Positions 3,485 through 22,245 of a stretch of 22,293 bases of DNA are shown here, piece by piece. Position numbers and translations under genes: made by a program. Below the pieces are notes generated by a model. It was not told where the DNA came from. It worked only from the letters and a program-made list of their open reading frames with translations, and did not search any database. Origin of the DNA: a virus; the IMG/VR virus record IMGVR_UViG_3300025086_000281, positions 1 through 22,293 of that record. The stretch is one strand, 5' to 3'. Each line of letters opens with the position of its first letter. Positions within the stretch are counted from its first letter, which is position 1.

Positions 3485-3673
3485 ATGAGCGATTACTTCC
3501 CGCCAATTGATGAGCGATTGGTGGCTGCACTAGCGGCAAAGTTCCCTAGTCAGTCTCCATCGCTTGATACACCAGAGCGTCAGGTCTGGTTTGATGCGGG
3601 TGCTGCTCATGTTGTTGAGTGGCTCACTCTCAGACTGGAAGAGCAGAATGAGATGAACTTGGAGGGCATCTAA
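3485..3673 (+). CDS. Small hypothetical protein (62 aa)
   Basis: A 62-residue acidic protein, probably all-helical, starting MSDYFPPIDERLVAALAAKF. It has no recognised motif. It is placed between the exonuclease and the first gp6.7/7.3-like gene and its stop directly abuts the next ATG. No convincing Shine-Dalgarno precedes the ATG at 3485; an ATG at 3481 is out of frame. A protein of this kind at this position feels familiar from cyanobacterial podoviruses, but I cannot confirm that from the sequence. Function unknown. Confidence 0.75.
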   Translation: MSDYFPPIDERLVAALAAKFPSQSPSLDTPERQVWFDAGAAHVVEWLTLRLEEQNEMNLEGI

Positions 3674-4078
3674 ATGTGTTTTGGCGGCGGTGGGGGAGGC
3701 GGCACCATCAACATGCCTGACACCGGTGCATATGACCGGATGTTGGATCGTCAGATTGCTGCGATGGAATCAGAGCGGGATGGCGTTGTCCAGCTAAAGC
3801 AGGCTGAATTGCAGACAGCTCAGCAGGCGCAGCAGCAAGCGTTGACGCAGCTGAACGATTACAGGACAGACAGGGCTGAGGAATTTGCCTCTGTGGAGGC
3901 TGAAGCTCGCCGTCTGATGAACATTGTCGGTGCGCCTCCCCCGGAGGAGTCCGCCAAGGCGCCAGTCGTTGGCGACAGTCGCCGTTCTTCCAGCAGGAAG
4001 AGGGGCAAGCGTGGGCTACGGATTGGCCGTAGCAGCGCAAGTTCTTCCGGTTATGGCACCGGTCTCAACATCACCTGA
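3674..4078 (+). CDS. Small virion-type protein, gp6.7/gp7.3-like (copy 1 of 3)
   Basis: A 134-residue protein. It opens with MCFG and a run of glycines, then has a long helical, glutamine-rich stretch (about residues 20-75, coiled-coil-like), a basic linker with SRKRGKRG, and ends in GLRIGRSS followed by SSGYGTGLNI. T7 gp7.3 ends in a comparable serine-glycine GGGINI tail after a KSLSVARSS segment, and T7 gp6.7 begins Met-Cys-Phe, as I remember both. T7 gp6.7 and gp7.3 lie at the same place between genes 6 and 8 and are minor virion proteins that leave the particle during infection. A strong GGAGGG ribosome site (3661-3666) precedes the ATG. The likely role is a minor head/tail or ejected protein. 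The two following genes are homologues. Confidence 0.75.
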   Translation: MCFGGGGGGGTINMPDTGAYDRMLDRQIAAMESERDGVVQLKQAELQTAQQAQQQALTQLNDYRTDRAEEFASVEAEARRLMNIVGAPPPEESAKAPVVGDSRRSSSRKRGKRGLRIGRSSASSSGYGTGLNIT

Positions 4079-4086
4079 GGTTCACC

Positions 4087-4491
4087 ATGTGTTTCGGAGC
4101 ACCAGCAGCACCTGAAATTGTTTATTCAGGTCCAAGCCAAGAGGACATTGATCGCAACACTGCATCGCTCAACGAGTATGAGCAGAAGGTGGCGGATCAG
4201 CAGGCCAACTTCTCTGCGCAGTTGGCACAGCAAATCACTGCAGCAGAAGAGGAGACGGCACGGATCCAGGCCAGATATGACGAGGAGCTGGCTGCCGCTG
4301 CCGCAGATGCTGATGCTGCCGGGTCAATGGAGAACAACAACGTCTATGCCGTCACGGCAGCGCAAACACCGGTGAGTGGGGCCGAGACGACAACGGCAAT
4401 CAAGAAAAAGAAAAAGCCCAATAGCTCACTGAAGATTGCCATCGGTGGCACGCAAAACCAGGCCGGTTCCGGCCTCAACATTGGAGTTTGA
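4087..4491 (+). CDS. Small virion-type protein, gp6.7/gp7.3-like (copy 2 of 3)
   Basis: A 134-residue protein with the same architecture as its upstream neighbour: MCFG start, central alanine/glutamine/glutamate-rich helix (about residues 20-80, coiled-coil-like), then a lysine run (KKKKKP), a SSLKIAIGG segment and a SGLNIGV end. Central sequence is diverged from copy 1, but both ends are conserved, which argues for duplication with functional constraint on the ends. A purine-rich TGAGG site lies about 8 bases before the ATG. No signal peptide. Probably a minor virion protein; the exact role is unknown. Confidence 0.72.
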   Translation: MCFGAPAAPEIVYSGPSQEDIDRNTASLNEYEQKVADQQANFSAQLAQQITAAEEETARIQARYDEELAAAAADADAAGSMENNNVYAVTAAQTPVSGAETTTAIKKKKKPNSSLKIAIGGTQNQAGSGLNIGV

Positions 4492-4493
4492 TC

Positions 4494-4940
4494 ATGTGCA
4501 CTGGTGATGGCGGCCAAGCTGCTGCAGAACGCGAGCAACGACGCCAGGAAGAGCTGGCAAGGTCACGTCAAAACGAGCTGAATCGTATTGCTGCAGAACG
4601 TCAGGCGATTACTGCAAGCCAGCAGGCAAGACGTGATGAGCTGTTAGCTACTGCCTCTGCGCAGGAGGCTGCGGCTAAGGCCGAGTCTGAACAGGCGTTG
4701 GCTGAGTTTGAGGGTGAGCGAGCTGTACTCAAGCAGCAGGCTGAAGCAAAGACTCGCGCAGGTCAGGCAGCTGGCCAATCGCTGCGAGTGCTTGCAATGA
4801 ATCAAGGCAGGCAGCAAGGCAGGTCGGCAACGATCAGCAAGCGTCGTAACCCTCGCCGTGGTGCTCGTCAAACCACAGCATCGCTGCGTCTTGGTTCAAC
4901 CGCGAGCCGCGGCGGCTCAGGATCCAACCTCTCTATCTGA
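4494..4940 (+). CDS. Small virion-type protein, gp6.7/gp7.3-like (copy 3 of 3)
   Basis: A 148-residue protein starting MCTGDGG, with a long charged helix (about residues 10-95, rich in Glu, Arg, Gln and Ala, coiled-coil-like), an arginine-rich segment (KRRNPRRGAR), then ASLRLGSTASRGGSGSNLSI at the end. The ends match copies 1 and 2. I chose the ATG at 4494 over the in-frame TTG at 4488 because GGAG (4483-4486) is spaced for 4494 and because this gives the family Met-Cys start. It precedes the portal gene by two bases. Confidence 0.72.
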   Translation: MCTGDGGQAAAEREQRRQEELARSRQNELNRIAAERQAITASQQARRDELLATASAQEAAAKAESEQALAEFEGERAVLKQQAEAKTRAGQAAGQSLRVLAMNQGRQQGRSATISKRRNPRRGARQTTASLRLGSTASRGGSGSNLSI

Positions 4941-4942
4941 CC

Positions 4943-6565
4943 ATGAAGAGCGCTCAATCGATTTACGACTCCCTCCAATCTGAGAGGAATTACTGGCTCG
5001 ATCGAGCGCGGCGGTCAGCAAGTCTGACGATCCCGTATCTAATCCCGATCTCCAACACTCCAACGATGGAGAACGTGGATGCGTTTCGGCTGCCATGGAA
5101 CGGGATCGGGCAGAGAGGAACCAACAGCCTCTGCGCGAAGCTGTTGATGGCAATTCTTCCGCCGACTGAGGCGTTTTTCCGTTTCACCTTGGATCCGGTG
5201 GAGATGGAGAAGCAGGAACTTCAGATGGCAGAAGCCGGCATGGCGCCGGAAGAGATTGCATCAGCCAAGTCTGAAATTGAGCTGTCGCTGAACAAGCTGG
5301 AGCTGTCGATTCTGCGCAGCATTGAAACCAGTAATGACCGGGTGATGGTGCATGAAGCACTGATGCACCTTGTCGTCGGTGGCAACTGCCTGATGCACAT
5401 CGCTGAGGATGGCTTGCGGGTCTATCCGCTCAATCAGTATGTGCTGTTGCGTGATCCGATCGGAGAGCCACTGGTTGCTGTCATCAAAGAAACGATGGCG
5501 ATTGATCAGCTGCCGGCGAGCATTCGCAATGAGCTGAGTAAAGACAAGGATGAATATGGTCAGCTGCTGGACACGAATGATCCACTGCCGACCGGCGAGC
5601 CGAATAAAGCGGTTGATATTTACACCTGCGTGAAGTGGGAGGGTGAAAGCGTTGAGTGGTTCCAAGAGATCAATAAGCAGGAGATTGAAGGCACTAGGGG
5701 TTCATCTAAGAAATCAGTATCGCCGTGGTTGCCGCTCAGGATGGCCAGCTATCAGGCAAGCAGCTATGGGCCTGGCTATATCGAGTCAGCTGCTATCGCT
5801 GATTTACAAACAGCAGAAGCACTGTCGCAAGCTGTTGCTGAATGTGCACTGGTTAGCGCTCAGGTAAAGCATCTTGTGAAGCCAGCTGGTGTAACCAATG
5901 CCAAGAATTTGGCGGAGGCACCGAACGGCGCCTATTTGCCGGGAAATCCAGAGGATGTCTACACCGTCAGGACCGACAAGGGATCCGACGTTGGTGTTGC
6001 TTACACAGCATTGCAACGTATTGAGCAACGCTTGGCAGCGACATTCATGCTCTCTGAAATGCGTGACGCTGAGCGCGTTACTGCCGAAGAAGTCCGAATT
6101 AGTACACTCGCTACGGAGCAATCCCTCGGGAACGTGTATGCAATTCTGACCAGTGAATTTCAAGCCCCATACATCAGAAGGCGCCTTGATCTCTACATGA
6201 AGAAAGGCGGAATGCAGAAGCTGCCTGAGGGTCTTGTGCAGCCAATGGTCAGCGTCGGCTTGGCTGGTGTCGGTCGCGGCAATGATCTTGAAAAGACGGC
6301 TCGATTCATCAACATCCTCCAGCAATCAATAGGCCCTGAGGGTATGGCTCAATACCTGAATAACAGTGAGCTCATTAAGCGGTTGGCAAGTTCAATGGGT
6401 ATAAGTCCGTTAGGCTTGGTGAAGTCAGAGCAGCAAATTGCAGCTGAAATGCAACAAGCTCAGCAGCAAGCAATGCAGCAACAACTGATGGCTAATCCTC
6501 AGGGAGTCGCAGCAGCTGCTCAGACCGTCCAAGAAATGAACACACCACCTGAAGAAAATGGCTGA
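4943..6565 (+). CDS. Portal (head-tail connector) protein, T7 gp8-like
   Basis: A 540-residue protein, nearly the same length as T7 gp8 (536). It forms the dodecameric ring at one vertex through which DNA is packaged and ejected, and it nucleates head assembly. The N-terminus has the typical podovirus portal pattern: an early helix, RSASLTIPYLIP (24-35), LPWNGIGQRGTNSLCAKLL (50-68) and an FFRFTLDP strand (79-86). The DAERVTAEEVR segment and a following long helix match portal stem/wing elements. The C-terminus is glutamine- and methionine-rich (QQAQQQAMQQQ), as often seen at the portal barrel end. The stop overlaps the scaffold start by 8 bases. Weak ribosome site. Confidence 0.93.
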   Translation: MKSAQSIYDSLQSERNYWLDRARRSASLTIPYLIPISNTPTMENVDAFRLPWNGIGQRGTNSLCAKLLMAILPPTEAFFRFTLDPVEMEKQELQMAEAGMAPEEIASAKSEIELSLNKLELSILRSIETSNDRVMVHEALMHLVVGGNCLMHIAEDGLRVYPLNQYVLLRDPIGEPLVAVIKETMAIDQLPASIRNELSKDKDEYGQLLDTNDPLPTGEPNKAVDIYTCVKWEGESVEWFQEINKQEIEGTRGSSKKSVSPWLPLRMASYQASSYGPGYIESAAIADLQTAEALSQAVAECALVSAQVKHLVKPAGVTNAKNLAEAPNGAYLPGNPEDVYTVRTDKGSDVGVAYTALQRIEQRLAATFMLSEMRDAERVTAEEVRISTLATEQSLGNVYAILTSEFQAPYIRRRLDLYMKKGGMQKLPEGLVQPMVSVGLAGVGRGNDLEKTARFINILQQSIGPEGMAQYLNNSELIKRLASSMGISPLGLVKSEQQIAAEMQQAQQQAMQQQLMANPQGVAAAAQTVQEMNTPPEENG

Positions 6566-7550: not shown

Positions 7551-7778
7551 ATGGCTGACGCTGATCTCAAACGAGTAGGTCAAATTAAGGGCACCGGTGG
7601 CTCATGGGCCGCTGGTGCTACTGCTCAAGATGGCTTCAAAGCCCTGTTCCTCAAGCTGGGTTCTGCAGAGGTGCTGAGCGCCTTTGAGGAATACTGCTGC
7701 ATGAAGGGCAAGGTGAAGGAAAGGAACATCCGTGGAGGCAAATCCATGGCGTTCCCCATCACCGGTAAGCAAGAGGCT
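7551..7778 (+). CDS. Major capsid protein, T7 gp10-like, exon 1
   Basis: This exon encodes the first 76 residues of the coat protein, ending FPITGKQEA. Joined to 8041-8856 it makes a 347-residue protein, matching T7 gp10A (345). The N-terminal arm starts MADADLKRVGQIKG; the segment RGGKSMAFPITG corresponds to the T7 SGKSAQFPVLG stretch, in the extended-loop region of the HK97 fold. Unspliced, the frame runs into intron sequence and stops at TAA 7800-7802, which would give a useless 83-residue fragment. The ATG at 7551 is the only start after an in-frame TAA at 7521; no Shine-Dalgarno is seen, which is odd for what should be the most abundant virion protein. The 5' splice point after T7778 was chosen by the U-G pair in P1, restored reading phase and protein alignment. 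Confidence 0.9.
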
Positions 7779-8040
7779 GAATTGCGGCCCGCATTCGCGT
7801 AAGCGAACTGCGATAACAGGGTGAATTGTCTGGGACCCCTCCATCTTTGGGGAATCAGCAGCCAAGCCAGATCACAATCTGGAAGGTTCAACGACTAGAT
7901 CCCGAGAGGAAACTCAGTAACGGATCCACGAGTGCCCTGCACCCAACCAGTTATTAACTAGGGGGTGAAGATATAGTCTGACCTTGCGGGATGGTAAACC
8001 GTAAGAACCGAAGGATAAAGAGCCTTCGGGATAACATTTG
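7779..8040 (+). ncRNA. Group I intron (subgroup IA-like), ORF-less
   Basis: A self-splicing intron of 262 nt interrupts the capsid gene. P1: exon GGCU (7775-7778) pairs with GGCC (7786-7789), with U-G at the splice point; UGC (7783-7785) can pair with the first exon-2 bases GCA as P10. P2: 7791-7798 with 7803-7811 and a GUAA tetraloop. P3: CAGGG (7817-7821) with CCCTG (7935-7939). P4: TTG-T-CTG (7826-7832) with CAGCAG (7856-7861). P5: CCCC (7836-7839) with GGGG (7849-7852). P6: CCAGAT (7867-7872) with ATCTGG (7877-7882). P7: GACTA (7893-7897) with TAGTC (7974-7978). P7.1/7.2-type hairpin: GATCC (7898-7902) with GGATC (7922-7926). P8: CACCC/GGGTG closing 7940-7967. P9-type hairpin: CCGAAGG (8008-8014) with CCTTCGG (8023-8029). 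The last base is G8040. The Q-like AATCAGCAGCCAAGCC and R-like TTCAACGACTAGA strings are textbook. There is no homing endonuclease inside. The boundaries are inferred. Confidence 0.93.
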
Positions 8041-8856
8041 GCATACCACCAGCCCGGCACAGAAATCAACGGAGGAACCAACGATCCTTCCGCGATCAAT
8101 GAGCGCGTTCTCAACCTTGATTCCCTGATGGTGGCAGACGCCGCGATCGCGGAAGTTGATGAGCTCATGGCTTATTGGCCAGCACGCCAAGAGATCACTC
8201 GTGAACTCGGTCGTGCATTGGCTTATGAGTATGACCGCAGAGCCTTGCGCATTGTTTATGCCGCTTCAGTAAACACAACTGAACCGCTGAACAAGACCAT
8301 CAACACTGGCCGTATCGGTACTTCCGTCACCCTCGGAACCGACTACACCGGTGCTTCTGCAACTCGTCAAGAAAAGGGCGATGCGCTTGTGAACGCTATC
8401 TTCGATTGCAGAATCGAGATGGAAAAGAAGGACGTTCCTGTTGACTCAGGAATGTATGCAGTCTTCGGCCCTGAGGATTACTACGCCATCACCCAATCTT
8501 CCAGAGCTATCAATGCTGATTTCGCTGGTGGATATGGCGCAAACGGCACGATTGCAGATGGCAAGACCCTGCAAATTGCAGGCATTCCCATCCTGCGTTC
8601 AAACCACGTCACTCAAGCTGACTACTCGCTAGTCGCCGGGGACAATAATTCCGAATACGCACAAGACCTGAGCAAGTGCAAAGGACTTGTGTTCCACGGT
8701 GATTGCATGGGTGTCCTGTCACTGCTCTCCCCTGCACTGCAGGTGACCAGCGGCGACTGGAATGTTTCTCACCAGTCCACATTGCTTGTGGCTCGTCAGA
8801 GCATCGGCATGGGAGTTCTCCGTGCTGAGTGTGCTGCCAACATCAGCATCACCTGA
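8041..8856 (+). CDS. Major capsid protein, T7 gp10-like, exon 2
   Basis: This exon supplies residues 77-347, starting AYHQPGTEI, the continuation of FPITGKQEA in exon 1. It contains the coat segments typical of T7-type capsids: INERVLNLDSLMVADAAI, DELMAYWPARQEITRELGRALAYEYDRRAL, the DYYAI beta region and the SDGDWN-like C-terminal SGDWNVSHQS followed by LLVARQSIGMGVLR. It builds the icosahedral shell around the DNA. The triplet TTG at 8038-8040 directly before it is the 3' end of the intron, not a start codon. A strong terminator (8888-8915) follows, as after T7 gene 10. No slippery sequence for a gp10B-like frameshift product is evident at the 3' end. Confidence 0.93.
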   Translation, partial: AYHQPGTEINGGTNDPSAINERVLNLDSLMVADAAIAEVDELMAYWPARQEITRELGRALAYEYDRRALRIVYAASVNTTEPLNKTINTGRIGTSVTLGTDYTGASATRQEKGDALVNAIFDCRIEMEKKDVPVDSGMYAVFGPEDYYAITQSSRAINADFAGGYGANGTIADGKTLQIAGIPILRSNHVTQADYSLVAGDNNSEYAQDLSKCKGLVFHGDCMGVLSLLSPALQVTSGDWNVSHQSTLLVARQSIGMGVLRAECAANISIT

Positions 8857-8956: not shown

Positions 8957-9618
8957 TGGGTTCGTCCATGCAGTCAGCCACTCCGGGGCGCACGACGCTG
9001 CTGGATGCAACAAACGTCCTGTTGCGCAATATCGGTGAGATGCCGGTCAATTCGCTCGAAGACGAGCAGGTCCAAGACGCACGAATTGCTGAGCAGACCC
9101 TGCTTGAGTTTCACAAGGAAGGACAGACCCGTGGATGGTCGTGGAACCGTGAGGCCAAATACCCATTTGATCGTGATGCGACCACTGGCGAGGTTGATGT
9201 TCCAGCGTCAACGATGACCTGGCTGGTGGATCCGTATCACGACAATGGCCGTTACGTGCTGAGGGGCACCAGGGTCTACGACAAGAAAAACCGCACGTTC
9301 AAGATTGACGCCAACGATGCACCGATTGAGGCGGATGTGATCTGGCTGCTGTCGTGGGATGAATGCCCAGAGGCTTACAACCGATGGACAACGATCAGAT
9401 CAGCGCGGGTGTTTTCGACCCGGATGCTGGGATCAGATTCCGTCACCAACTACACGGCAGTTGATGAGCAAGCGGCATTGACCGAGTTGATGCGATTGGA
9501 GATGGAACAGTCGCAGCCAAACTCGCTGACAGGCGGCCCATTCTCTGGCCCAATGCCGACTTACAGCGCTGAGCAGGGCCTGCGTCGTTCAATGTTTGGA
9601 GGCAGCTACGTTGGCTAA
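8956..9618 (+). CDS. Tail tubular protein A, T7 gp11-like
   Basis: A 220-residue protein (T7 gp11 is 196). It forms the ring that joins the portal to the gp12-type nozzle and carries the tail fibres. The conserved start of the family is visible: a long helix LLDATNVLLRNIGEMPVNSL (15-34), then DARIAEQTLLEFHKEGQTRGWSWN, where the RGWSWN turn is a strong gp11 hallmark. The ATG at 8956 has no clear Shine-Dalgarno; the ATG at 8968, four codons in, is an alternative start. The 3' end overlaps the gp12-like gene by 8 bases and carries that gene's ribosome site. It is the first gene after the capsid terminator. Confidence 0.92.
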   Translation: MGSSMQSATPGRTTLLDATNVLLRNIGEMPVNSLEDEQVQDARIAEQTLLEFHKEGQTRGWSWNREAKYPFDRDATTGEVDVPASTMTWLVDPYHDNGRYVLRGTRVYDKKNRTFKIDANDAPIEADVIWLLSWDECPEAYNRWTTIRSARVFSTRMLGSDSVTNYTAVDEQAALTELMRLEMEQSQPNSLTGGPFSGPMPTYSAEQGLRRSMFGGSYVG

Positions 9619-12175
9619 TCTTGTCAGCTACACAATCCCTAGCCTAATTCAGGGTGTAAGCAATCAACCTGACGCACAAAGGGATCCCAGCCAGGCATCA
9701 ATACAAATTAATGGTGTCAGTTCGATTGCTGAAGGGCTGAGGAAAAGAGATCAGACAAATGTGCTTGCCAGGGTCAGCTCGAATCCCTTTGGCGATGCTT
9801 TTGTCCATTCCATCTTAAGAGACACGACAGAGGAATACCTGTCGGTGATCACGAATAGTGGCATTCAGGTTTTTGATTTAGATGGAACAGAGATAACAGT
9901 TGAAGAAGATGGCAGTTCCTTCAATTATTTGAGTTCAGTCACTGACGCACGCAGGCAATTGCGAGCGGTGACAATTGCAGATTTCACGTTTATCTGCAAT
10001 CTCAATACCAGCACGGCAATGAAGACGGACATTGCTCCTGCTAATGCCAGGCCAGAACCGCATGAATGCTTGATCTGGATTCGCGCCGCGAACTACGGCC
10101 AGACATACACCGTCAACGTCAATGGCAATCAAGTTCAGGTGACAACGCCTGTTGCGCCTGTTGTTACCAGTGGAAGCACGGTAACAGAAAACAGGATTAG
10201 TTCTGAGGATATTGCAGATGCAATTATCACAGGACTAGGCACTGCTGGCCTGACTGGTTACGACTTAGATCAGCAGGGTTCAGTGATCTGGATTCGTGGC
10301 GCAAACCCGATAACGGTTGAGGTTTCTGACGCTCGATCTAACGCAGACATTACTGCAATCTTGAATTCAGTACAGACATTTACTGAACTTCCGACGATTG
10401 CACCAATTGGCTATCAGGTCACAATTGAAGGTGATCCTGGCAATCAATTTGACACCTATTACGTTGAATTCCAACCGCGTGGTTCGGATGTCAAGAATCC
10501 ATCAACTCCACCTGAGTTTGGTGAAGGTTCATGGCTAGAAACTGTTAGTCCTGGTGTTGAGTATCTGATCGATCCAGATACCATGCCGCACCTGCTTATT
10601 CGTAAAAGTAATGGTGAGTTCTGGTTCGGCCCCGCCAACGGTCAGGTCGTAGCCAACATTCCTAATAACGTGCCGTCCTGGGGCGAGCGCACCTGCGGCG
10701 ATTTTGATACAGCCCCGGATCCCAGCTTCATTGGGAATCCAATCAATGACGTTTTTATCTACAAGAACCGACTTGGTTTCTTGGCTGACGAAAACATCAT
10801 CCTTAGCCAGAACCGAGAATTTTTCAAATTCTTCCCTGACACGACCACGACAGTTCTGGATACAGATCCGATTGATCTGGTTGCCAGTAATAACAGGGTT
10901 TCGATCCTGCGATATGCCGTTCCTTATCAGGACGAACTGATCCTTTTCAGTGCGCAGTATCAGTTCAGGTTCAACGCGGCGGAAACTGTTTTGACGCCAA
11001 AAACGGCTCAGCTGACTGTGCTGACCCAATACGAGGTGGATGTGAACCTGCGGCCACAACAGGTGGGTGGCGGAATCATTTTTGCGCAGGAGAACGGCGA
11101 GTGGTCACAGATGCGCGAATTCAGCGTGAGGGGAGCCGGCACCGCGCTAACTGCCGACGCGACCGATCTGACCGGATACGTCTCCAGCTATGTGCCGGCA
11201 GAGCTTTTTAAGTTGGCGGTCAACGACACCGGCAATGCGCTGTTTGCCATTAGCGGCCGGGAGGTCACGGGCGGAACTGATTACAGAAACAGGATTTACG
11301 TCTACAAGTTTTTCTTGCGCAATCAGGGCAGCGGTGTCGAGAGAGCGCAATCCAGCTGGAGCCATTTTGAGCTGACCGGTGCTGATCAGATCCTCCAGGT
11401 GCTTTGCGTTGAGGAGATGCTTTATCTGCTGGTGCAATACGGCAATGAGGTTTATCTGGAACAGATGTCGGTGATGGACCGCCAGGCAGAAACTGCCAGC
11501 GCTGCACCGTATCCAATGTTGTTGGATCGACGAGTCACGAACACAGCCCACACTCCAGTAAGTGTTCGCATGGCGGCTGCGACTTACAACCAACAAACGA
11601 ACACTTCTACGTTCACCGTGCCTTACACGATGACGGCACGAACGCAGATCTGGTCCATGTGGAACTTGGCCGATCCAACGGCGACAGGTCCAGTGTTTAT
11701 TGGTGAGGCTGAAAGCGGCACCACGATCACGGCAAGGGGTGACTGGTCATCGACTGATTGCGTGTGTGGTGAGCCGTTTGAGTTCCGCTATCGATTTACC
11801 AAATTCAAGATGGTGAAAGACATCGGTGGCGGCAGAACTGCGGTCAATTCGATGCGAACGCAGATCAGGACAGCCAAGCTCAGATATCACGAGACCGGGT
11901 TCTTCAAGGTCATGGTGATGCCTGAATACAGGGCTACGGGCGAATACATCTATGACGGCACGGTTGCAGGTGTGCGAAATGCTGCGATTGGCAGGCCAGA
12001 CATCTCGCACGGTGAAGACACTGCTCGATTCTTTGAAGGTGTTTTTTCTGTGCCGATTTACGGGCAAGGTGACCAGATCTTTGTTGAAATCAGAAGTGAT
12101 CAACCCATGCCTTGTAAGTTCTCGACATGCGAATGGATTGCACTTGTGACAGGAAGAGCACAGGCTCTGCAATGA
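9611..12175 (+). CDS. Tail tubular protein B (nozzle), T7 gp12-like, TTG start
   Basis: An 854-residue protein (T7 gp12 is 794). It makes the hexameric tail nozzle, a beta-propeller-rich tube through which DNA leaves. The N-terminus MANLVSYTIPSLIQGVSNQP matches the gp12 family opening, where a short strand is followed by G-G-x-S-x-Q-P. Further family-like segments are KNRLGFLADENIILSQ (near residue 391) and FSAQYQFRF. I chose TTG at 9611 over the in-frame TTG at 9596 because GGAGG (9598-9602) lies 8 bases before 9611 and the protein then begins like the family. A rare start codon under a strong ribosome site may set stoichiometry. The stop overlaps the next ATG as ATGA. Confidence 0.92.
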   Translation: MANLVSYTIPSLIQGVSNQPDAQRDPSQASIQINGVSSIAEGLRKRDQTNVLARVSSNPFGDAFVHSILRDTTEEYLSVITNSGIQVFDLDGTEITVEEDGSSFNYLSSVTDARRQLRAVTIADFTFICNLNTSTAMKTDIAPANARPEPHECLIWIRAANYGQTYTVNVNGNQVQVTTPVAPVVTSGSTVTENRISSEDIADAIITGLGTAGLTGYDLDQQGSVIWIRGANPITVEVSDARSNADITAILNSVQTFTELPTIAPIGYQVTIEGDPGNQFDTYYVEFQPRGSDVKNPSTPPEFGEGSWLETVSPGVEYLIDPDTMPHLLIRKSNGEFWFGPANGQVVANIPNNVPSWGERTCGDFDTAPDPSFIGNPINDVFIYKNRLGFLADENIILSQNREFFKFFPDTTTTVLDTDPIDLVASNNRVSILRYAVPYQDELILFSAQYQFRFNAAETVLTPKTAQLTVLTQYEVDVNLRPQQVGGGIIFAQENGEWSQMREFSVRGAGTALTADATDLTGYVSSYVPAELFKLAVNDTGNALFAISGREVTGGTDYRNRIYVYKFFLRNQGSGVERAQSSWSHFELTGADQILQVLCVEEMLYLLVQYGNEVYLEQMSVMDRQAETASAAPYPMLLDRRVTNTAHTPVSVRMAAATYNQQTNTSTFTVPYTMTARTQIWSMWNLADPTATGPVFIGEAESGTTITARGDWSSTDCVCGEPFEFRYRFTKFKMVKDIGGGRTAVNSMRTQIRTAKLRYHETGFFKVMVMPEYRATGEYIYDGTVAGVRNAAIGRPDISHGEDTARFFEGVFSVPIYGQGDQIFVEIRSDQPMPCKFSTCEWIALVTGRAQALQ

Positions 12176-12618
12176 AATGGGCGGACGCAACTGAAGAGGC
12201 TGCACTTCATATTGCGATCCACCTAAGAGAGGAAGACAAAGCAGAAGTTTGGTTGAGTCACGGCCTTACACCCACTGAGGCCGTGATGTGGAGCTGGTCT
12301 GAGAGTGATATATGCCGCTGCATCGCTTCAGCGGATGGCGAACCATTGGCTCTGACGGGCCTAGTTCGGAATAGGATCTGGCTACTCGGCACTGAAAAGT
12401 TGACCGCCACACGCGAGAGACGTTTGCAACTGTGCAAAGAAGGGAGAGAATGGGTTGAGACGTGCATTGAGCGAGCTGGGATGGCCATCGGCAATGACGT
12501 TTATGCGAAGAACACTCGCAGCATCCGCTGGCTAAAACATCTCGGGTTTGAGGTGGCAACTCCTAGGCCAATGGGTCCGAGCGCTGAGTTGTTCTCTGAG
12601 TTTTGGAGGGCTGCTTAA
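12172..12618 (+). CDS. gp13-like virion assembly protein, GNAT-fold
   Basis: A 148-residue protein (T7 gp13 is 138) in the exact T7 position. It begins MKWADATEEAALHIAIHLRE, then DKAEVWLSHGLTPTEAV, matching the gp13 pattern of R-x-x-D-x-x-E-x-W-x-S-H-G. The C-terminal NTRSIRWLKHLGFEV (about 114-128) is the usual last motif of N-acetyltransferase folds. T7 gp13 is needed for proper internal core assembly, and no enzymatic role is established. I chose ATG 12172, which overlaps the gp12 stop, over the upstream in-frame ATGs at 12127 and 12133, which lie in gp12 coding sequence and add 15 or 13 unlikely residues. Confidence 0.85.
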   Translation: MKWADATEEAALHIAIHLREEDKAEVWLSHGLTPTEAVMWSWSESDICRCIASADGEPLALTGLVRNRIWLLGTEKLTATRERRLQLCKEGREWVETCIERAGMAIGNDVYAKNTRSIRWLKHLGFEVATPRPMGPSAELFSEFWRAA

Positions 12619-13511
12619 TGGTTGCACCGTTGGCCATGGGGTTGATCAGTGGTGGCATTAACGCCGCCACTGGGGTGCTTGGTGCGTTTGGCCAGCAGGC
12701 TGCTGCACGCCAGAGATACGCCGATGATCTTGCCTTTCAAACCGCCAATAACAGGTTTGCTGCTTGGCAGGCAGGGTTTAACGCCAAGGTTCAGGACGCT
12801 AATAAGGAGCACCAGTTTTGGAAGGAAACGGTCAACTACAACCAGCAGCGATCGTTCGTTAATTCGCAGCGCAATGTCGATCTGTTGCGTGAAGCTGATC
12901 AGGCTCAGGTTGTTTTTCAAAATCGAGCATCTGCCGGAGCTGCCTATGCAGACGACAGTGCTGCTCTGAGTGATCAGCTGGCTGAAGCAGAAATGGCTTC
13001 AGCGGTCGCTCAGCAGCAATACACCTGGAGAGCGCTGTCAGCACGGGCATCGGTGCAAGCGTTGAATCAAGAAGGGAATTCTGTTGAGCGAATTGTCAAC
13101 AACTATGCGTTTCAGCTAGGTGATCAGCTGTCGCTTGCGGCGATTGAGTCCGACCTGAGGGAGAGGCAATACGACAGAGCGCAGGCAGGGCAGGTTGCTC
13201 AATACCTGAACAGATGGAACAGCCAGACGTTCTATGAAGGTCAGCAATTCATGGATCCATTGGCGCCATTTGCGCCGCTGCCAACGCTGATCACGCCACC
13301 GCCACCGACCAGAACAGGGGCACCACCGAGCAACGCAGCATTTGCGATGAATGTTGCCACTGGATTGCTGGGTGGCGTCAGCGCTGGTTTCAGCACTTAC
13401 AACTCAATGAGTCGGTTGCAAACGCCTAGCAGCAGGATCGGCCCTGGCACTCCAGGTGGCCGTCTGGGCGGAAATGTTCTGGGTCAAATCAGTAATTACA
13501 TGGACAGCTGA
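12618..13511 (+). CDS. Internal virion protein, T7 gp14-like
   Basis: A 297-residue protein (T7 gp14 is 196). T7 gp14 is ejected first and forms a pore in the outer membrane. Residues 4-28 (from PLAMGLISGG through VLGAFG) are a small-residue hydrophobic stretch able to enter a membrane, as in the gp14 family. A long alanine- and glutamine-rich helical region (30-215) follows, then a proline-rich linker (PLPTLITPPPPTRTGAPP) and a second glycine-rich hydrophobic stretch (AMNVATGLLGGVSAGF). The ATG at 12618 follows GGAGGG (12605-12610) and shares one base with the preceding stop. Assigned from position, composition and length; gp14 proteins diverge fast. Confidence 0.82.
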   Translation: MVAPLAMGLISGGINAATGVLGAFGQQAAARQRYADDLAFQTANNRFAAWQAGFNAKVQDANKEHQFWKETVNYNQQRSFVNSQRNVDLLREADQAQVVFQNRASAGAAYADDSAALSDQLAEAEMASAVAQQQYTWRALSARASVQALNQEGNSVERIVNNYAFQLGDQLSLAAIESDLRERQYDRAQAGQVAQYLNRWNSQTFYEGQQFMDPLAPFAPLPTLITPPPPTRTGAPPSNAAFAMNVATGLLGGVSAGFSTYNSMSRLQTPSSRIGPGTPGGRLGGNVLGQISNYMDS

Positions 13512-16088: not shown

Positions 16089-18842
16089 ATGCAACCTCTT
16101 TTTGCCATTCCTGAGATCGACGAGGAGACCGCTTACGAGCCGGTCAAAGTTGCTTATCCAGAGAGTCCACGGGGTCCTGGCGGGCTGCCGCCTGATCTGA
16201 CGGATGTTCTGCGAACAAACGTCGGCAATCAGCTTGGCCCGATTCCACAGGAGCAGCTGAATCAGATGACTCCAAGTCAGCTGCGTGCGCTGAAAAACCA
16301 GCGGTTTGAAGATGCTGCCGGCTGGGGCAGGCCACTGGCTCAACTCTTTAATGCGGTGACATCACCAGCAGTGGGCGAGGGAATGATCCTTGGCATCCCA
16401 AACGCATTGGCGCAGCTGGGCCGAAACACAGTTGATGCTTTGGTGGGCCTGCCCAGCGAGTCAGAGAGCGCTGAGTTCGGCATTGAATACACACCAACAC
16501 CGCAGATTCCTAGAGACGCACTGGCTGGTATCAACCCACTGAGAGAAGGCGACCCTGCTGATACACCAGCTGATCAATACGGCTACGAGATCGGCGCTGA
16601 GTCAGCAGCTGAACTCGCTGGTTTCGCTACTGGTTCAGGATTGCTGCGTCGATTGCCGCAGGCAGCCAGGCTTGCCAATGCCATCAGGCAAACCAGAACG
16701 GTTAAGAGCCTGGCGGTTGCTGGCAGTCAGAACAGAACGATTCGACGTGGCATCAACCTTGCTCGCTTTGGTGGAGAGGCGCTGTTTGATAACGCCTTAT
16801 CGCAGATCTATTCAGATCCGTCGTTTGGCAATGCTGCTGACCTGACTTCAGTTGTGGGAATTTCCAACCCACTGCAAACAAACGAGAACGACGATTACTG
16901 GGAAGCGCAGGTCAAAAAGCTGACTGCGGACACATTGTTCATTTTCAAGCTGGCTGGCGGTGCTCAGGCAATCCCGGCAGTCCGTCGTCTGGCTGATGGC
17001 GATATGGCGTTTGGCTTGGAAGAGCTGGCCCGTGTTGAGCTTGAGCCGTATGTGCCAAGAAAGATCACGCAGCCTCAGCTGCCACCGGCTTCATCTGTTG
17101 ATCAGCAGTTTGATTCAGCTATTGATCGCACTACCTCTGCACAGTTGCAGGCACAGCAGGTAGCGCAGCAGCAGGAACGCATCAACACGATGTTCCCTGG
17201 ACTGCGGGAACTGAATAGCGACCAGCTGGCCATCGACATTACGTCGGTTGGCGGCACCGGCACCGGCAACAGACTTAGCAGGGTCGAGACGCCTGAAGGT
17301 GAGGTTGTCCCTGGCGGCCCGGAATTTGAATTCAAACAACGTCCAAGGCAGGGCGCACTTGATTTGGGTGAATTCGGTGATGCACCGGATCCACGACCAG
17401 AGATCTCCACGTATCTGGCAGAGCTCGATGAGCTGGATGATGCAGGGCTGCGGCGTGTTGTGGCCAACGTCAACCAAGACGAGAGATTGATTGCCCGGCA
17501 GCGATTGCTTGAAGATGCAGAAGCTCGCGCAATTGCAGCTGAAGAAAAGATCTTTGAGGTGGGTGACCGTCTTGACTTGCCTGAAGGAGACAAGCGCAAG
17601 CTGACTGAAAAAGGCTCTAAGCGAATCCTGAACAAGGCGAACAAAGAGCTTGAGCTAGCACGAATTGAAGCAAGCAATATTTCGGCGGAACCATTCACTC
17701 CTGCCAGCGTTGGCGATCAGCTGGCAATGGAGTTGCAACCAGTGCGTCTAGGCCAGCTTGATCTGGACCTTGACCCCAAAGCAAAGGTTGAGAGTCCTGA
17801 GATTCAGCTGCCCAGCCTGGAGAAGTTTGAATTCGATGAGGCCACCGGGACGTGGCGACCGAAGAAAGCTGATGGCGGCTATCCCAGCCTGGAGGCGTAT
17901 CGCGAAGACATCTCCGGCTGGAACCGTGATCTGCTCAGAGGGATGGCATCGCCGGAGAACAGCCCGCAGATCGCTGCACTGGTGAAGGCAAGGACTGGCC
18001 GCCGGGTGTGGGCTGCCAAAAAGCAGGACATCGTTGATGCGCTGGTTGAGTATGCCGGCCGCACCAAGCGATACGCCGTTGACCCTGGCAGGCAGTTGGA
18101 GATTCCTGGTCAGCAGGGACAGTTGCCGGTGAACCAATTGGTGACAACAGAAACAGGCGTTGCCATTGATGTTCCGTTCCAGCGTCGTGGCATGAGTGCT
18201 GACGAGCGCGAGCTGATGAAGAAGAAGATTCTGCAGGCAGCGATTGATGCAGGTGAGGTGCAGGCAGACATCACCCCGCCACCAGCAGGTCTGCCGCAGA
18301 TTCAATTCAACCAGGGTGAGTTGATTGAGTCGCTGTTTAACGCTGACGCGAGCGGCCAGCTTGATCTGCTCAAAGGCTATGCCGACGGCGAAATCCCGAC
18401 CTACAAGGCTGGCGGTAAAAACGCTGAAGCTCTGATTGAGGAAGTGCGGTCGCGGTTCGATTGGGCAGAGCTTGATGGTGCTGGCCAGGTCGCATCGAAG
18501 AAAGCGATGTGGGAGAAGGAGGGATGGAACAAGTTGACGTGGGATGAGCGCAAGCGGTTGATGATGCTCAACCGTGAAGAGACAGGCCTTTACCGGGATA
18601 CGCCGGGGGAGGTGACTGACGTTGGAACCACGACTCAGTTGTTGGAGTGGACTCCAGAAGGCAACGTGCCAGCCAAGGAAGCAGCAGTTAAAAAGCCTGC
18701 AGCAACCAAGCCAAAATCAAGGCGCAAATCCAAGAGCACCAAGACCCCTGATCAGGTCAAGGTCGATCAAACCCTTAAACGAGCCGACGACGACGTTCGT
18801 CGACTTGAAAAGCAACTAGCGGAGGCAACCTGCAATGGCTGA
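16089..18842 (+). CDS. Large internal virion protein, first gp16-position protein
   Basis: A 917-residue protein directly after the gp15-like gene. In T7 this place is taken by gp16 (1318 residues), the largest ejected protein. The N-terminus is proline-rich; residues about 75-130 and 180-250 hold glycine/alanine-rich hydrophobic helices (for example GEGMILGIPNALAQLG) that might touch membranes. The middle (450-560) is a charged, acidic coiled-coil-like region, and the end (about 865-890) is very lysine-rich before a final helix. I see no lytic transglycosylase motif, which T7 gp16 carries at its N-terminus. No strong ribosome site precedes the ATG at 16089. It overlaps the next large gene by 8 bases. 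Role inferred from position and size. Confidence 0.75.
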   Translation: MQPLFAIPEIDEETAYEPVKVAYPESPRGPGGLPPDLTDVLRTNVGNQLGPIPQEQLNQMTPSQLRALKNQRFEDAAGWGRPLAQLFNAVTSPAVGEGMILGIPNALAQLGRNTVDALVGLPSESESAEFGIEYTPTPQIPRDALAGINPLREGDPADTPADQYGYEIGAESAAELAGFATGSGLLRRLPQAARLANAIRQTRTVKSLAVAGSQNRTIRRGINLARFGGEALFDNALSQIYSDPSFGNAADLTSVVGISNPLQTNENDDYWEAQVKKLTADTLFIFKLAGGAQAIPAVRRLADGDMAFGLEELARVELEPYVPRKITQPQLPPASSVDQQFDSAIDRTTSAQLQAQQVAQQQERINTMFPGLRELNSDQLAIDITSVGGTGTGNRLSRVETPEGEVVPGGPEFEFKQRPRQGALDLGEFGDAPDPRPEISTYLAELDELDDAGLRRVVANVNQDERLIARQRLLEDAEARAIAAEEKIFEVGDRLDLPEGDKRKLTEKGSKRILNKANKELELARIEASNISAEPFTPASVGDQLAMELQPVRLGQLDLDLDPKAKVESPEIQLPSLEKFEFDEATGTWRPKKADGGYPSLEAYREDISGWNRDLLRGMASPENSPQIAALVKARTGRRVWAAKKQDIVDALVEYAGRTKRYAVDPGRQLEIPGQQGQLPVNQLVTTETGVAIDVPFQRRGMSADERELMKKKILQAAIDAGEVQADITPPPAGLPQIQFNQGELIESLFNADASGQLDLLKGYADGEIPTYKAGGKNAEALIEEVRSRFDWAELDGAGQVASKKAMWEKEGWNKLTWDERKRLMMLNREETGLYRDTPGEVTDVGTTTQLLEWTPEGNVPAKEAAVKKPAATKPKSRRKSKSTKTPDQVKVDQTLKRADDDVRRLEKQLAEATCNG
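17136..17151 (+). promoter_or_regulatory. Intragenic copy of the TCTGCAC motif
   Basis: TCTGCACAGTTGCAGG matches the site-2 motif TCTGCACATCTGCAAC at 12 of 16 positions, including TCTGCACA and TGCA at the same spacing. It is inside the coding region of the first gp16-position gene, encoding SAQLQA. It could be an internal promoter for the second large gene, but one such match by chance is not surprising. Confidence 0.2.
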
Positions 18843-21800
18843 TTGTTCAAAGATTGAAGCTGAACTTCAGCGTGCACGGGAACGGCAAGCTGCTGCGCAA
18901 AAGCTGAAGCGGCAGGTTGATGCCGAGGCGAAAGCCACTGCTGAGATGAGAGCGGAGGAAGAGGCGACAGGCGCCAAGCCATTCCGCACGTTCTCCATGG
19001 TGGACGGCACCAAGATCAGGATCAATCCGCGTGAGTTCTACCGACAGGTGGAGCTGGACAACATCGGTCTGGGTGAAGACAAGGTGCGTGAGTTGGTGCG
19101 TGCTCGCTTCGACAAGGACGCCAAGCCTGATGGCAGCGAAGGGTTGAACATCAACTACGCGGAGATGGAATTCAACGATGAGAACCGCAACATCCTGCTG
19201 GAGTTGGCCGGTGCTCGTCGCATGAAATCTGCTGCTGGCGCTGAGCTGGCAATGGAATTCACCGAAGAAGCGGCGCGTGAGCAGCTGCTCGACAACATCC
19301 GAATGCTGGGTGGTGATGCTGCTGAGATTGCCAGGGTGATGGGGCGGAACAGTGCAGGACTGAAGAAGCTGCCAGTCCTGATGGTGATGGCGAAGAAGAT
19401 GAAATTCGACAGCGCTCGGTATTACGCCGACTTGTTGGATGACACGGGCACGTTGATTGATACGTTCGGCGTCAGCCCTGCGATGCAGGCCAGGCTGTCG
19501 CGTGCCTCACAGTTCACTCATTTCTTTGAGCAGTTTGATGCGCTGGTTTCCAGGAAGGTGGGCCAAGCATTGGCATCACGTCAGTTTGGTTCGATTTCCG
19601 AACGCTTGGACGGAATTGGAGATGAGATTGATTTTGGAAACATCAAGAGCCTTGATCTGGAACTGTTGGAAGAGGGCAGCCTTGCTGCTCAAGTGAGCGA
19701 GGCAATCCTGCAGGGGAACGCAGAAGACCTGCGCAAGATTGCGCGTGCCAAGCGTGTTGGTGCATTGAATGAAGTTGGCCTGAATGAGGGCAGGATCTCT
19801 ACGCAGGTGAGGATCCTGAACAACCTGCGCCGGGACAACATGTTCTTGAGCCCGTCCACCTGGGTGCAGCGCAACGTGGTAGCTGGTGCGCTGGTGAACT
19901 TCAGCAATGGCGCTGAGGATTTTTACTCCATGGCCTTCAAGAGAAAGGACTTGGGGGATGCCTATCGCATGTCGATGTTCGCTGTCCGCAATATGGGGAT
20001 GGGAATGAGCGCTGCATTCGGCAATGCGTTCGAGATGCTGACAACAGGCAAGCCGACATTTACGCAGGCCGGGATCAAGGAAGGTCTTGATCCGATGTCA
20101 CTGGTCAACAGGAAAGAGAACAATCAGCAGATCATGTTGAAAACCAGGGATGACCTGAATTCTCTGTGGGAAGAAGTTGTTGAGGGGAACATTGCGCAGA
20201 AGGCTGGCGCTGCAGCGGAAGCAACAGTGGATGTTCCCCTGTCAGCGTTGACGTTGATGAGCACCGGCGCTCGCTACTTGCTGGGCAAAACGATTGAAAG
20301 CTTGCCTGGTGGCAGCACTGCTGGATATTCACCAGGCTTTTCGCTGTTGGCTGCTGGTGATGAAGTCACCCGCAAGATGGCGTTTGATTGGGCTGCCAGC
20401 AAAACGGCCTACGACAACGCCCTGACCGAATGGGATCAGCTTGTTGATAAGCCAGAAGGAATCTCCAAGGCGCAGTGGGTAGCTGATCGCGCCAATGAGC
20501 GAGCAGAAGCTGCAGTGTTTGCGCCAGAGAAGATGACTGCTGATGACCTGGCAGTGATCAGACGCCAAGCCGGTGGAATGCAGTTTGGCGATATGGGCGA
20601 TGACGCGCTGCGTCTGAAGCTGTTCAACGATCAGGCTGGACTGCCAAACCTTGGAACACCTGAAGGCAGGGCTGGTGCGGCGCGTGGCGCTGCAGCCACA
20701 TTCACGCAAAAGATTGACGGCCAAGTTGGCGTCGGCATTCAGATGATCAGGCAGAACCCGCTGGGTGGCTGGGTCATGCCAGTGTTTCAGACCCCATACA
20801 ACGGTCTGAAGTGGTTGATCGGCCGCGACTTTCTGTGGCAGCTGCCACAGCAATTTATCAAGGAAACACGTCAGGCCAGGGGGGTTGCTGATGACCTGCC
20901 ATTCACGGCAGATGAGATGGCTGATGCTCGTGCCAGAACACTGAATGCATTCATGATCAGTGCGACAACTTATGGGCTGTGGCAATCAGGCGTGTTCCGC
21001 GATGGTGGCAGCTTTAACCCTGATCAAAGGAAGCGTGAGAACAACCCAGCGTTGGGCGCACCGTATTCATTTGCTTTCAGCATGGGCAACATTCTTGGCA
21101 TGTCCAAGCTTTCAATTCCAGGCGCATCAATTGATCTGGTTGACCTGATGGGATTACAGGCTGATGTGCACCGAGCACGCCACGAAAGCCTTATCAATGA
21201 CACGGATGTTCAAGAGTTCATCTTCTCTATCAGCCAGGCGTATATGCGTGTGCTGGATAACAAGTCAACGCTGACTGGCGTGATGGACATCCTCAACATG
21301 ATCAATCGGGTAGCAACGGGTCAGAAGGTTGACTTCACACAAGTCATGGCAGGTCAGATGAATGGAGTCTTGCCCTTGTCTGGGTTCATGGGTGCTGCAT
21401 CGCGTGGCTTTCAGGACCCAAACGAGCAGCAGACGTTTGGCCGTCGGCAACTGTCTCCAACCGAGGTTGAAGCGTTAGGCAAAGATCCCAATTGGAATGT
21501 GTTCCAGAAGTTTTGGGGCAGGGTGGCTCGCAACTATCCAATCGTTGGAACCATTGGCTATCAGTATCAAGACAAGGATTGGTTGATGCGTGATCGTCGC
21601 CGGCCATTTGGTGTGCCGGTGGATTCTGCTGCACCTTTCGCAATCCTTCTGACGAACGACAGTCCACTGGATCAGTGGATGAACAAGAACGGCTTCGGTG
21701 CCAAGCCAAGACCTGAAGGCAAAGTGGGTGGCTCTGACTTGGGCCTGCCGACTGGCACTGCGGCAACAACAATGTCGATGGATGAAGAGCGGACCTATCG

Positions 21801-22245
21801 GATTGAGATGAACCGGATCAAGGGTGATGTTCCAGTTGAGTTGATCCTGGGTAAAACCAACGCAGTAATCAACACAGGCACCAACGTCTACAACATCAAC
21901 CAATACACCCGAGGCAAAACGCTAATTGAAGCGTTGACAGCGTTAAGCGAGGATCCGCGATACAACGCTGATCTGTCATTGCCTTACGGACCGAGCCTTG
22001 AAAACTCACAGCTGCCCGTTTGGGATCAATCATTGGCCAAGAGGAAAGAAAGGATCAATGACCCTGGTGGTGTCTACAAAGTGTTCAACGCGATTGTCGA
22101 TTACTACGACAAGCTGGGATTGACGGCAATGGCGCGACAGCACCCTGACTTTGTGAAGAAGGCAATTGCCAACACGCAAGTCAGAAAGGAGAGAGAGCTG
22201 GAGAACTACGAGGCGCAGTCACCGCTGGGTCTTTCCCGGCAATGA
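18835..22245 (+). CDS. Large internal virion protein, second gp16-position protein
   Basis: An 1136-residue protein, by far the largest in the window. The first 45 residues are a charged helix (coiled-coil-like), matched by a charged helix at the end of the preceding protein. Residues about 345-430 (FLSPSTWVQRNVVAGALV, RNMGMGMSAAFGNAFEML) and 640-720 (MIRQNPLGGWVMPVFQTPYN, LNAFMISATTYGLW) have conserved-looking, weakly hydrophobic helices of the kind seen in the gp16 C-terminal part and in large phage structural polyproteins. I see no transglycosylase or other catalytic motif. GGAGG (18821-18825) lies 9 bases before the ATG at 18835, so it has its own start and is not just the second half of a frameshifted gene. 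It is presumably ejected with the other internal proteins; this is inferred from position. Confidence 0.78.
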   Translation: MADCSKIEAELQRARERQAAAQKLKRQVDAEAKATAEMRAEEEATGAKPFRTFSMVDGTKIRINPREFYRQVELDNIGLGEDKVRELVRARFDKDAKPDGSEGLNINYAEMEFNDENRNILLELAGARRMKSAAGAELAMEFTEEAAREQLLDNIRMLGGDAAEIARVMGRNSAGLKKLPVLMVMAKKMKFDSARYYADLLDDTGTLIDTFGVSPAMQARLSRASQFTHFFEQFDALVSRKVGQALASRQFGSISERLDGIGDEIDFGNIKSLDLELLEEGSLAAQVSEAILQGNAEDLRKIARAKRVGALNEVGLNEGRISTQVRILNNLRRDNMFLSPSTWVQRNVVAGALVNFSNGAEDFYSMAFKRKDLGDAYRMSMFAVRNMGMGMSAAFGNAFEMLTTGKPTFTQAGIKEGLDPMSLVNRKENNQQIMLKTRDDLNSLWEEVVEGNIAQKAGAAAEATVDVPLSALTLMSTGARYLLGKTIESLPGGSTAGYSPGFSLLAAGDEVTRKMAFDWAASKTAYDNALTEWDQLVDKPEGISKAQWVADRANERAEAAVFAPEKMTADDLAVIRRQAGGMQFGDMGDDALRLKLFNDQAGLPNLGTPEGRAGAARGAAATFTQKIDGQVGVGIQMIRQNPLGGWVMPVFQTPYNGLKWLIGRDFLWQLPQQFIKETRQARGVADDLPFTADEMADARARTLNAFMISATTYGLWQSGVFRDGGSFNPDQRKRENNPALGAPYSFAFSMGNILGMSKLSIPGASIDLVDLMGLQADVHRARHESLINDTDVQEFIFSISQAYMRVLDNKSTLTGVMDILNMINRVATGQKVDFTQVMAGQMNGVLPLSGFMGAASRGFQDPNEQQTFGRRQLSPTEVEALGKDPNWNVFQKFWGRVARNYPIVGTIGYQYQDKDWLMRDRRRPFGVPVDSAAPFAILLTNDSPLDQWMNKNGFGAKPRPEGKVGGSDLGLPTGTAATTMSMDEERTYRIEMNRIKGDVPVELILGKTNAVINTGTNVYNINQYTRGKTLIEALTALSEDPRYNADLSLPYGPSLENSQLPVWDQSLAKRKERINDPGGVYKVFNAIVDYYDKLGLTAMARQHPDFVKKAIANTQVRKERELENYEAQSPLGLSRQ

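Follow-up and report, generated by a model that had tools for sequence, protein, structure and literature searches.

What are the three small genes that stand one behind another before the portal gene in IMG/VR record IMGVR_UViG_3300025086_000281? The window analyzed, 22,293 bases, constitutes the entire source record and is a piece of a T7-like cyanopodovirus genome. The three genes, here called P1, P2, and P3 (Table 1), had been read from the sequence alone as tandem, diverged copies of a gp6.7/gp7.3-type protein whose ends might act as docking or sorting signals. We conclude, with a probability of about 70%, that P1–P3 are gp6.7/gp7.3-like minor virion and ejection proteins of the portal–tail axis of a T7-like cyanophage. 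The observations behind this reading are the anatomy of the proteins, their gene position, their conservation, the similarity of their tails, and their copy-specific evolution; from these we infer a virion location, docking sites, ejection, and a division of labor.

Three adjacent copies with a Met-Cys start, a basic patch, and a shared C-terminal segment are present as originally described. The proteins begin with MCFG (P1), MCFG (P2), and MCTG (P3), carry GLRI, SLKI, and SLRL, respectively, each behind a basic patch, and end in GTGLNIT, GSGLNIGV, and GSGSNLSI. Alignment places the similarity of these ends above chance: shuffled sequences reached the tail scores in 1 of 5000 trials for P2–P3, 11 of 5000 for P1–P3, and 165 of 5000 for P1–P2, and profile–profile comparison joined the copies with E-values of 8e-13 (P1–P2), 2.5e-10 (P2–P3), and 1.6e-8 (P1–P3). 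The middles of P1 and P3 are not similar above chance (247 of 1000 shuffles), while P1–P2 and P2–P3 are borderline (21 and 31 of 1000). AlphaFold2, supplied with 12-sequence alignments, predicts one helix each in P1 and P2 between flexible ends, with a mean predicted local distance difference test (pLDDT) score of 69 and 71 and a predicted template modeling (pTM) score of 0.31 and 0.36, respectively. Searching the PDB with the P1 and P2 profiles gave nothing beyond coiled-coil-like noise, a tblastn search of phages with P3 found no match, and neither did the Met-Cys protein of P-SCSP1c against the PDB.

The two T7 proteins each resemble this family at one end. T7 gp7.3 (PF11653 VirionAssem_T7, phrog_1320) has the C-terminal basic segment, the S/G-L-x-I/V motif, and the Gly-rich I/L-N-I end, its C-terminus reading KKSLSVARSSGGGINI. 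Like the P1–P3 group, it is the last virion gene before the portal and has no internal cysteine, but its start is lysine-rich and lacks Met-Cys. T7 gp6.7 (PF17570 T7-like_gp67, phrog_1391) has the Met-Cys start, a cysteine at position 2 only, and an internal G-L-K-V; its gene lies upstream of gp7.3 and the portal, and P1–P3 likewise combine a Met-Cys start with a place in the pre-portal block. Unlike P1 and P2, gp6.7 has 88 residues, with loops alone resolved in the virion and no single long helix (PMC11784390), and it ends in AFGGKK rather than GxGLNI. The P1 tail profile aligned with the C-terminal 46 residues of T7 gp7.3 at an E-value of 1.3e-4, and the P1 tail itself outscored all but 6 of 5000 shuffles against gp7.3. 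The gp7.3 segment KK-S-L-x-V-x-R-S-S-G-x-G-I-N-I is clear in P1; in P2 and P3 it is weak alone but supported via the P1–P2–P3 profiles. A model built from 15 gp7.3 tails (E up to 10) hit 29 of the 281 proteins encoded upstream of portals and 10 of 3765 shuffled tails but none of the 472 other proteins; single E-values were weak (best 0.0044). The proposed type is partly supported: it holds for the tail profile link to gp7.3, the Met-Cys start, and the gene position, but does not extend to whole-protein Pfam membership.

Several results weigh against this assignment. P1–P3 have no Pfam match to gp6.7 (PF17570) or gp7.3 (PF11653) at E-values up to 1, and neither they nor the relatives of P1 and P2 match any PHROG or Pfam family above noise. 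Compared singly with gp7.3, the P2 and P3 tails are weak, with 139 and 511 of 5000 shuffles reaching their scores. A gp6.7 N-terminal model matched 15 of 281 portal-upstream proteins (all 15 Met-Cys) as against 1 of the 472 other proteins and 20 of 3765 shuffles; apart from Met-Cys itself, it gives no separation of the window family. Our literature search found no virion proteomics for the window lineage, and no such protein is named in the available portion of the paper on the structure of cyanophage P-SCSP1u. Finally, one molecule may not use both ends at once because in T7 the two end types sit on separate proteins at distant sites, whereas each copy in the window lineage carries both. This arrangement suggests that, in one lineage, each of three proteins came to carry both kinds of T7-type end.

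To gauge the age of the triplet, portal loci from phages and IMG/VR were compared. A three-gene chain adjoins the portal in 27 fetched loci representing 16 lineages (clusters), one of which, L015, has a portal identical to that of the window. Met-Cys is present in P1 and P2 of all 16 lineages and in P3 of 13; by locus, the counts are 27, 27, and 18 of 27. The P3 proteins without Cys2 still keep the tail, and their start lies at an unchanged distance behind P2, so the loss is apparently not a start-call artifact. For the last 30 residues, 48 of 48 comparisons gave as best match the same copy from a different lineage; same-copy matches also prevailed for the N-terminal 25 residues (43 of 48) and the middles (47 of 48). 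The 16 triplets all group within one clade (21 rows, support of 100) of a quick portal tree; each of the remaining five rows has a single Met-Cys gene or two, L076 among them being on a cut contig. As judged from these comparisons of sequence, P1–P3 are an old, stable triplet derived from one old triplication, each copy with its own middle and tail. A recent tandem repeat or gene conversion was ruled out, as the tail was closest to a sister copy in 0 of 48 cases. The suggestion that the copies have specialized is supported. That the middles diverged while the ends were kept is true between copies, but across phages the middles are conserved within the same copy and the tails are also copy-specific. 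Phages S-SRP02, MedDCM S38-C3, S31-C1, and S37-C6 have the same triplet before the portal; S31-C1 differs from the window in a P3 without Cys2 and in one long gp16-like gene. The third copy of S-SRP02 (L001:5807-6376) is missing from the annotation of its record.

How such proteins could function is suggested by T7. In the available text on the mature T7 cryo-EM structure (PMC11784390), six copies of gp7.3 residues 84–98 lie on nozzle-subunit pairs, K84 and K85 resting on the DNA end, and 12 copies of gp6.7, residues 2–15, encircle the portal barrel and form a bridge to gp14. Once ejection has taken place, the opened nozzle is lined by 12 gp6.7 and 6 gp14, and in gp6.7 conformer B, for which residues 11–59 are seen, the second helix touches two nozzle subunits (PMC11784390). 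Residues 53–56 of T7 gp6.7 are GLKV, inside this segment, and we infer that GLKV itself makes the nozzle contact. Since the motif lies in the nozzle-contacting part, gp6.7 may succeed gp7.3 at the nozzle site, gp7.3 occupying it before infection and gp6.7, via the like motif, afterwards. By analogy, these placements support the proposal that the ends of P1–P3 are docking segments. The N-terminal arm would be flexible and, with Met1 removed, would present the sole cysteine first, probably along the portal helical barrel like gp6.7 residues 2–15. The predicted helix of P1 and P2, approximately 9–10 nm long, would probably lie packed against the portal or the gp14-like protein, while the basic, flexible tail would probably attach to the nozzle and to the DNA end that is packaged last, like gp7.3 residues 84–98. 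We think it probable that all three proteins are ejected at an early stage of infection. The likely gp7.3-like member is P3, whose gene lies closest to the portal gene and which lacks Cys2 in some lineages; P1 and P2 would be gp6.7-like.

The cysteine at position 2 had been singled out as invariant and in want of an explanation. Portals clustered at 80% gave 55 clusters; a rule that took no account of cysteine called a last pre-portal gene in 47 of them and none in 8. A Met-Cys start was found in 28 of these 47 genes versus 5 of the 287 genes counted at other places in the loci, 2 of the 5 looking like relocated family members. Met-Cys proteins ending in GSGVN/GSGAN occur further upstream of the portal in L147 (at -1918) and L055 (at -2655); therefore, the gene can move. 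After adding T7-like and K1E-like loci, 98 clusters at 90% had enough upstream sequence; the pre-portal block held no Met-Cys gene in 34, one in 37, two in 13, three in 13, and four in 1, counts that include some chance frames or cut contigs. In proteins with both Met-Cys and the tail motif, Cys2 is the sole cysteine in 88 of 88 (codons TGT in 51 and TGC in 37), and residue 3 is often hydrophobic (Phe in 35). Of 17 additional Met-Cys genes that lack the tail motif, 16 encode one cysteine and 1 encodes four. Cys2 is the only cysteine of P1–P3 and belongs to a terminal-cysteine pattern, but it is not strictly invariant, being absent from the third copy in 3 of 16 lineages. We found no report on the N-terminal cysteine of these proteins in the open-access literature, subscription papers being mostly outside the search. 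The portal was considered as a disulfide partner of Cys2 and is unlikely here, because none of the four window-portal cysteines lies in the C-terminal part of the portal alignment, assumed to be the barrel.

The same pattern recurs in other proteins assigned as ejected. T7 gp14 (PF24072), the partner of gp6.7 in the outer-membrane channel (PMC11784390), is a different gene from P1–P3 yet also starts with Met-Cys, Cys2 being its only cysteine. A Met-Cys start with a sole cysteine is found in gp14 of 15/15 T7-type and 24/24 P-SCSP1-type loci (leaving out L284 and L285, two fragments of one contig), and window-type gp14-like proteins are cysteine-free in 23/23. Where exactly one small Met-Cys protein is present, the gp14-like protein is Met-Cys too, in 8 of 8 lineages (T7, ICP3 [Met3-Cys4], P-SCSP1c, Deep1, L042, L048, L046/L071, and L049 [GTG start assumed]); where there is none, it is cysteine-free in 4 of 4 (K1E, S-CBP4, L136, and L151), a contrast with a Fisher value of 0.002 if kinship is ignored. 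With two or more small Met-Cys proteins, the gp14-like protein is cysteine-free in the window, S-SRP02, S31-C1, and NMeng1, and Met-Cys in Unn. The total of Met-Cys proteins is never exactly one in any examined lineage, leaving aside L105, which has a Met-Cys gp14 but incompletely counted small genes. Twelve of the 20 records searched gave no gp14 match and are silent on this pattern; in 8 loci the gp14-like ORF was read from the matched frame, the automatic ORF search having matched only 2 of the 8. Proteins assigned as ejected, several by position, contain 12 cysteines in 18,753 residues, every one within four residues of a chain end, versus 87 in 13,614 residues of portal, tube, and T7 capsid proteins. 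Both sets were hand-chosen from fetched records rather than a census, the ejected set covering T7, ICP3, S-SRP02, Unn, P-SCSP1c, K1E, S-CBP4, NMeng1, Deep1, S31-C1, and the window. Unn gp46 (L242:3579-5591) is annotated as a tryptophanyl-tRNA synthetase, yet it is cysteine-free, stands at the gp15 position, and is probably misannotated.

The gp16-like gene extends the pattern. It is two genes in the window, S-SRP02, S37-C6, and pelagiphages, and in 28 of 28 places (among them the window and loci L315–L341) each half carries a single cysteine, located at the end that faces the other half, a reading that includes a few loci with frames past the start codon or cut by contig ends. First halves end in TCNG, GGSC (or GARC, GASC), YKCK, YKCD, or RKCL, and second halves begin with MADC, MTDC, or MAEC; the second half in HTVC120P has C9 (C6 from the second Met). 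Loci L318 and L333 are biased because they were found only through a scan pattern that contained MADC; of the 22 scan loci, the remaining 20 show the second of the two patterns. The first half is frameshifted in L329 (upstream of 3501). Among unsplit gp16-like proteins, no cysteine was found in T7 gp16, K1E gp36, or the 903 residues read of the S31-C1 gene.

One explanation for these counts, possible rather than probable, is that Cys2 is kept for disulfides between N-terminal arms in an oxidizing place, joining P1, P2, and P3 (or, in T7, gp6.7 with gp14), while the facing cysteines join the split gp16-like halves. Stated generally, and just as tentatively, T7-like short-tailed phages may have a terminal-cysteine code in their injected proteins, by which end cysteines pair between proteins (gp6.7 with gp14, P1–P2–P3, the two halves of gp16) and lock the ejection channel. 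Chains without internal cysteine could then unfold through the channel and cross the oxidizing periplasm without misbonding. The sole Cys2, the terminal placement of cysteines in ejected proteins, the small Met-Cys/gp14-like pairing, and the facing cysteines of split gp16, set beside cysteine-free unsplit T7 gp16 and K1E gp36, all favor such bonds. However, no bond has been observed, the available main text of the T7 paper mentions neither cysteine nor disulfide, and gp6.7 residues 1–10 are not resolved after ejection (PMC11784390). Moreover, P3 can lack Cys2, 35 of 98 portal clusters have no sole-cysteine Met-Cys gene in the block, and the 12 lineages are related, with part of the gp14-like assignments positional. 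An equally tentative account restricts Cys2 to packing: once Met is removed, its small thiol, now N-terminal, would fit a portal-barrel pocket, and cysteine poverty elsewhere would be a separate matter of channel passage. The modeling of T7 gp6.7 from residue 2 on the portal barrel (PMC11784390) and the frequent hydrophobic residue 3 agree with it, but it leaves unexplained the Met-Cys of gp14, the zero-or-at-least-two pattern, and the facing split-pair cysteines. Disulfide pairing would supplement, and not displace, the assignment of P1–P3 as portal–tail minor proteins. The conserved Cys2 yields a hypothesis that can be tested, namely that chain-end bonds hold the podovirus ejection machine together while injected proteins otherwise avoid cysteine.

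Other alternatives bear on the assignment itself. P1–P3 might be assembly factors that aid the attachment of nozzle and core to the portal but do not stay in the virion; this is unlikely, given that gp7.3 is still resolved in mature T7 (PMC11784390) and that relatives of both gp6.7 and gp7.3 were detected by mass spectrometry in phage phiPsa17 virions. It is far less credible that P1–P3 are unrelated small proteins with ends alike through low complexity (Gly, Ser, Lys). Although tail composition is simple and the single-tail tests are weak for P2 and P3, the sequence tests already disfavor this reading, through both the concentration of gp7.3-tail model matches upstream of portals and the copy-specific tails.

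The order of genes in the window is exonuclease, a small phrog_4970 protein, P1, P2, P3, and portal. An Autographiviridae-type structural block is confirmed by the portal (PF12236) and, further downstream, tube A (PF17212); an acetyltransferase-like internal virion protein is also encoded downstream of the portal. The scaffold, capsid, tube B, and core proteins were named by position.

Table 1. Coordinates of P1–P3, their parts, and presumed partner genes in the window
Feature	Position	Strand	Basis or remark
P1, first copy, 134 aa; Met-Cys arm followed by one long helix and the basic tail GKRGLRIGRSS..GTGLNIT	3674..4078	+	
P2, second copy, 134 aa; Met-Cys-Phe arm, long helix, tail SLKI..GSGLNIGV	4087..4491	+	
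P3, third copy, 148 aa, adjoins portal gene; Met-Cys arm, tail SLRL..GSGSNLSI	4494..4940	+	
P3 middle, helix-like	within 4494..4940	+	judged by sequence
Cys2 codon of P1 (sole cysteine)	3677..3679	+	
Cys2 codon of P2 (sole cysteine)	4090..4092	+	
Cys2 codon of P3 (sole cysteine)	4497..4499	+	
P1 predicted single helix, residues 19-85	3728..3928	+	AlphaFold2, pLDDT block means ~69-93
P2 predicted single helix, residues 18-79	4138..4323	+	AlphaFold2, pLDDT block means 82-96 to residue 70, then lower
P1 tail, counterpart of T7 gp7.3 residues 83-99	4004..4075	+	
P2 tail	4402..4488	+	
P3 tail	4872..4937	+	
Portal gene, presumed docking partner	4943..6565	+	phrog_449, PF12236
Tail tubular protein B (nozzle), presumed partner of tails	9596..12175	+	position after tube A
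gp14-like core protein, cysteine-free in window lineage	12618..13511	+	by position
Split gp16-like core protein, first half; sole cysteine residue 915/917, codon 18831-18833	16089..18842	+	by position
Split gp16-like core protein, second half; sole cysteine residue 4, codon 18844-18846	18835..22245	+	by position

The major capsid reading frame looks broken across two frames (7551-7802 and 8038-8856), which may be a sequencing error or a real break. The phrog_4970 protein (3485-3673) is a frequent upstream neighbor of Met-Cys genes in cyanophage-type loci; its homology to T7 gp6.5 is unsupported (hhalign E-value of 0.11), leaving it a positional counterpart only. The sequence marks described here can be used to seek gp6.7/gp7.3-type proteins in phages where these were called unidentifiable. 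The available text of a preprint on Vibrio phage Peru-2 calls gp6.7/gp7.3 of ICP3 not readily identifiable; ICP3 ORFs L012:1948-2199 and 2642-2932 match phrog_1391 (1.2e-18) and PF11653 (31.7 bits, over the cut-off), respectively.
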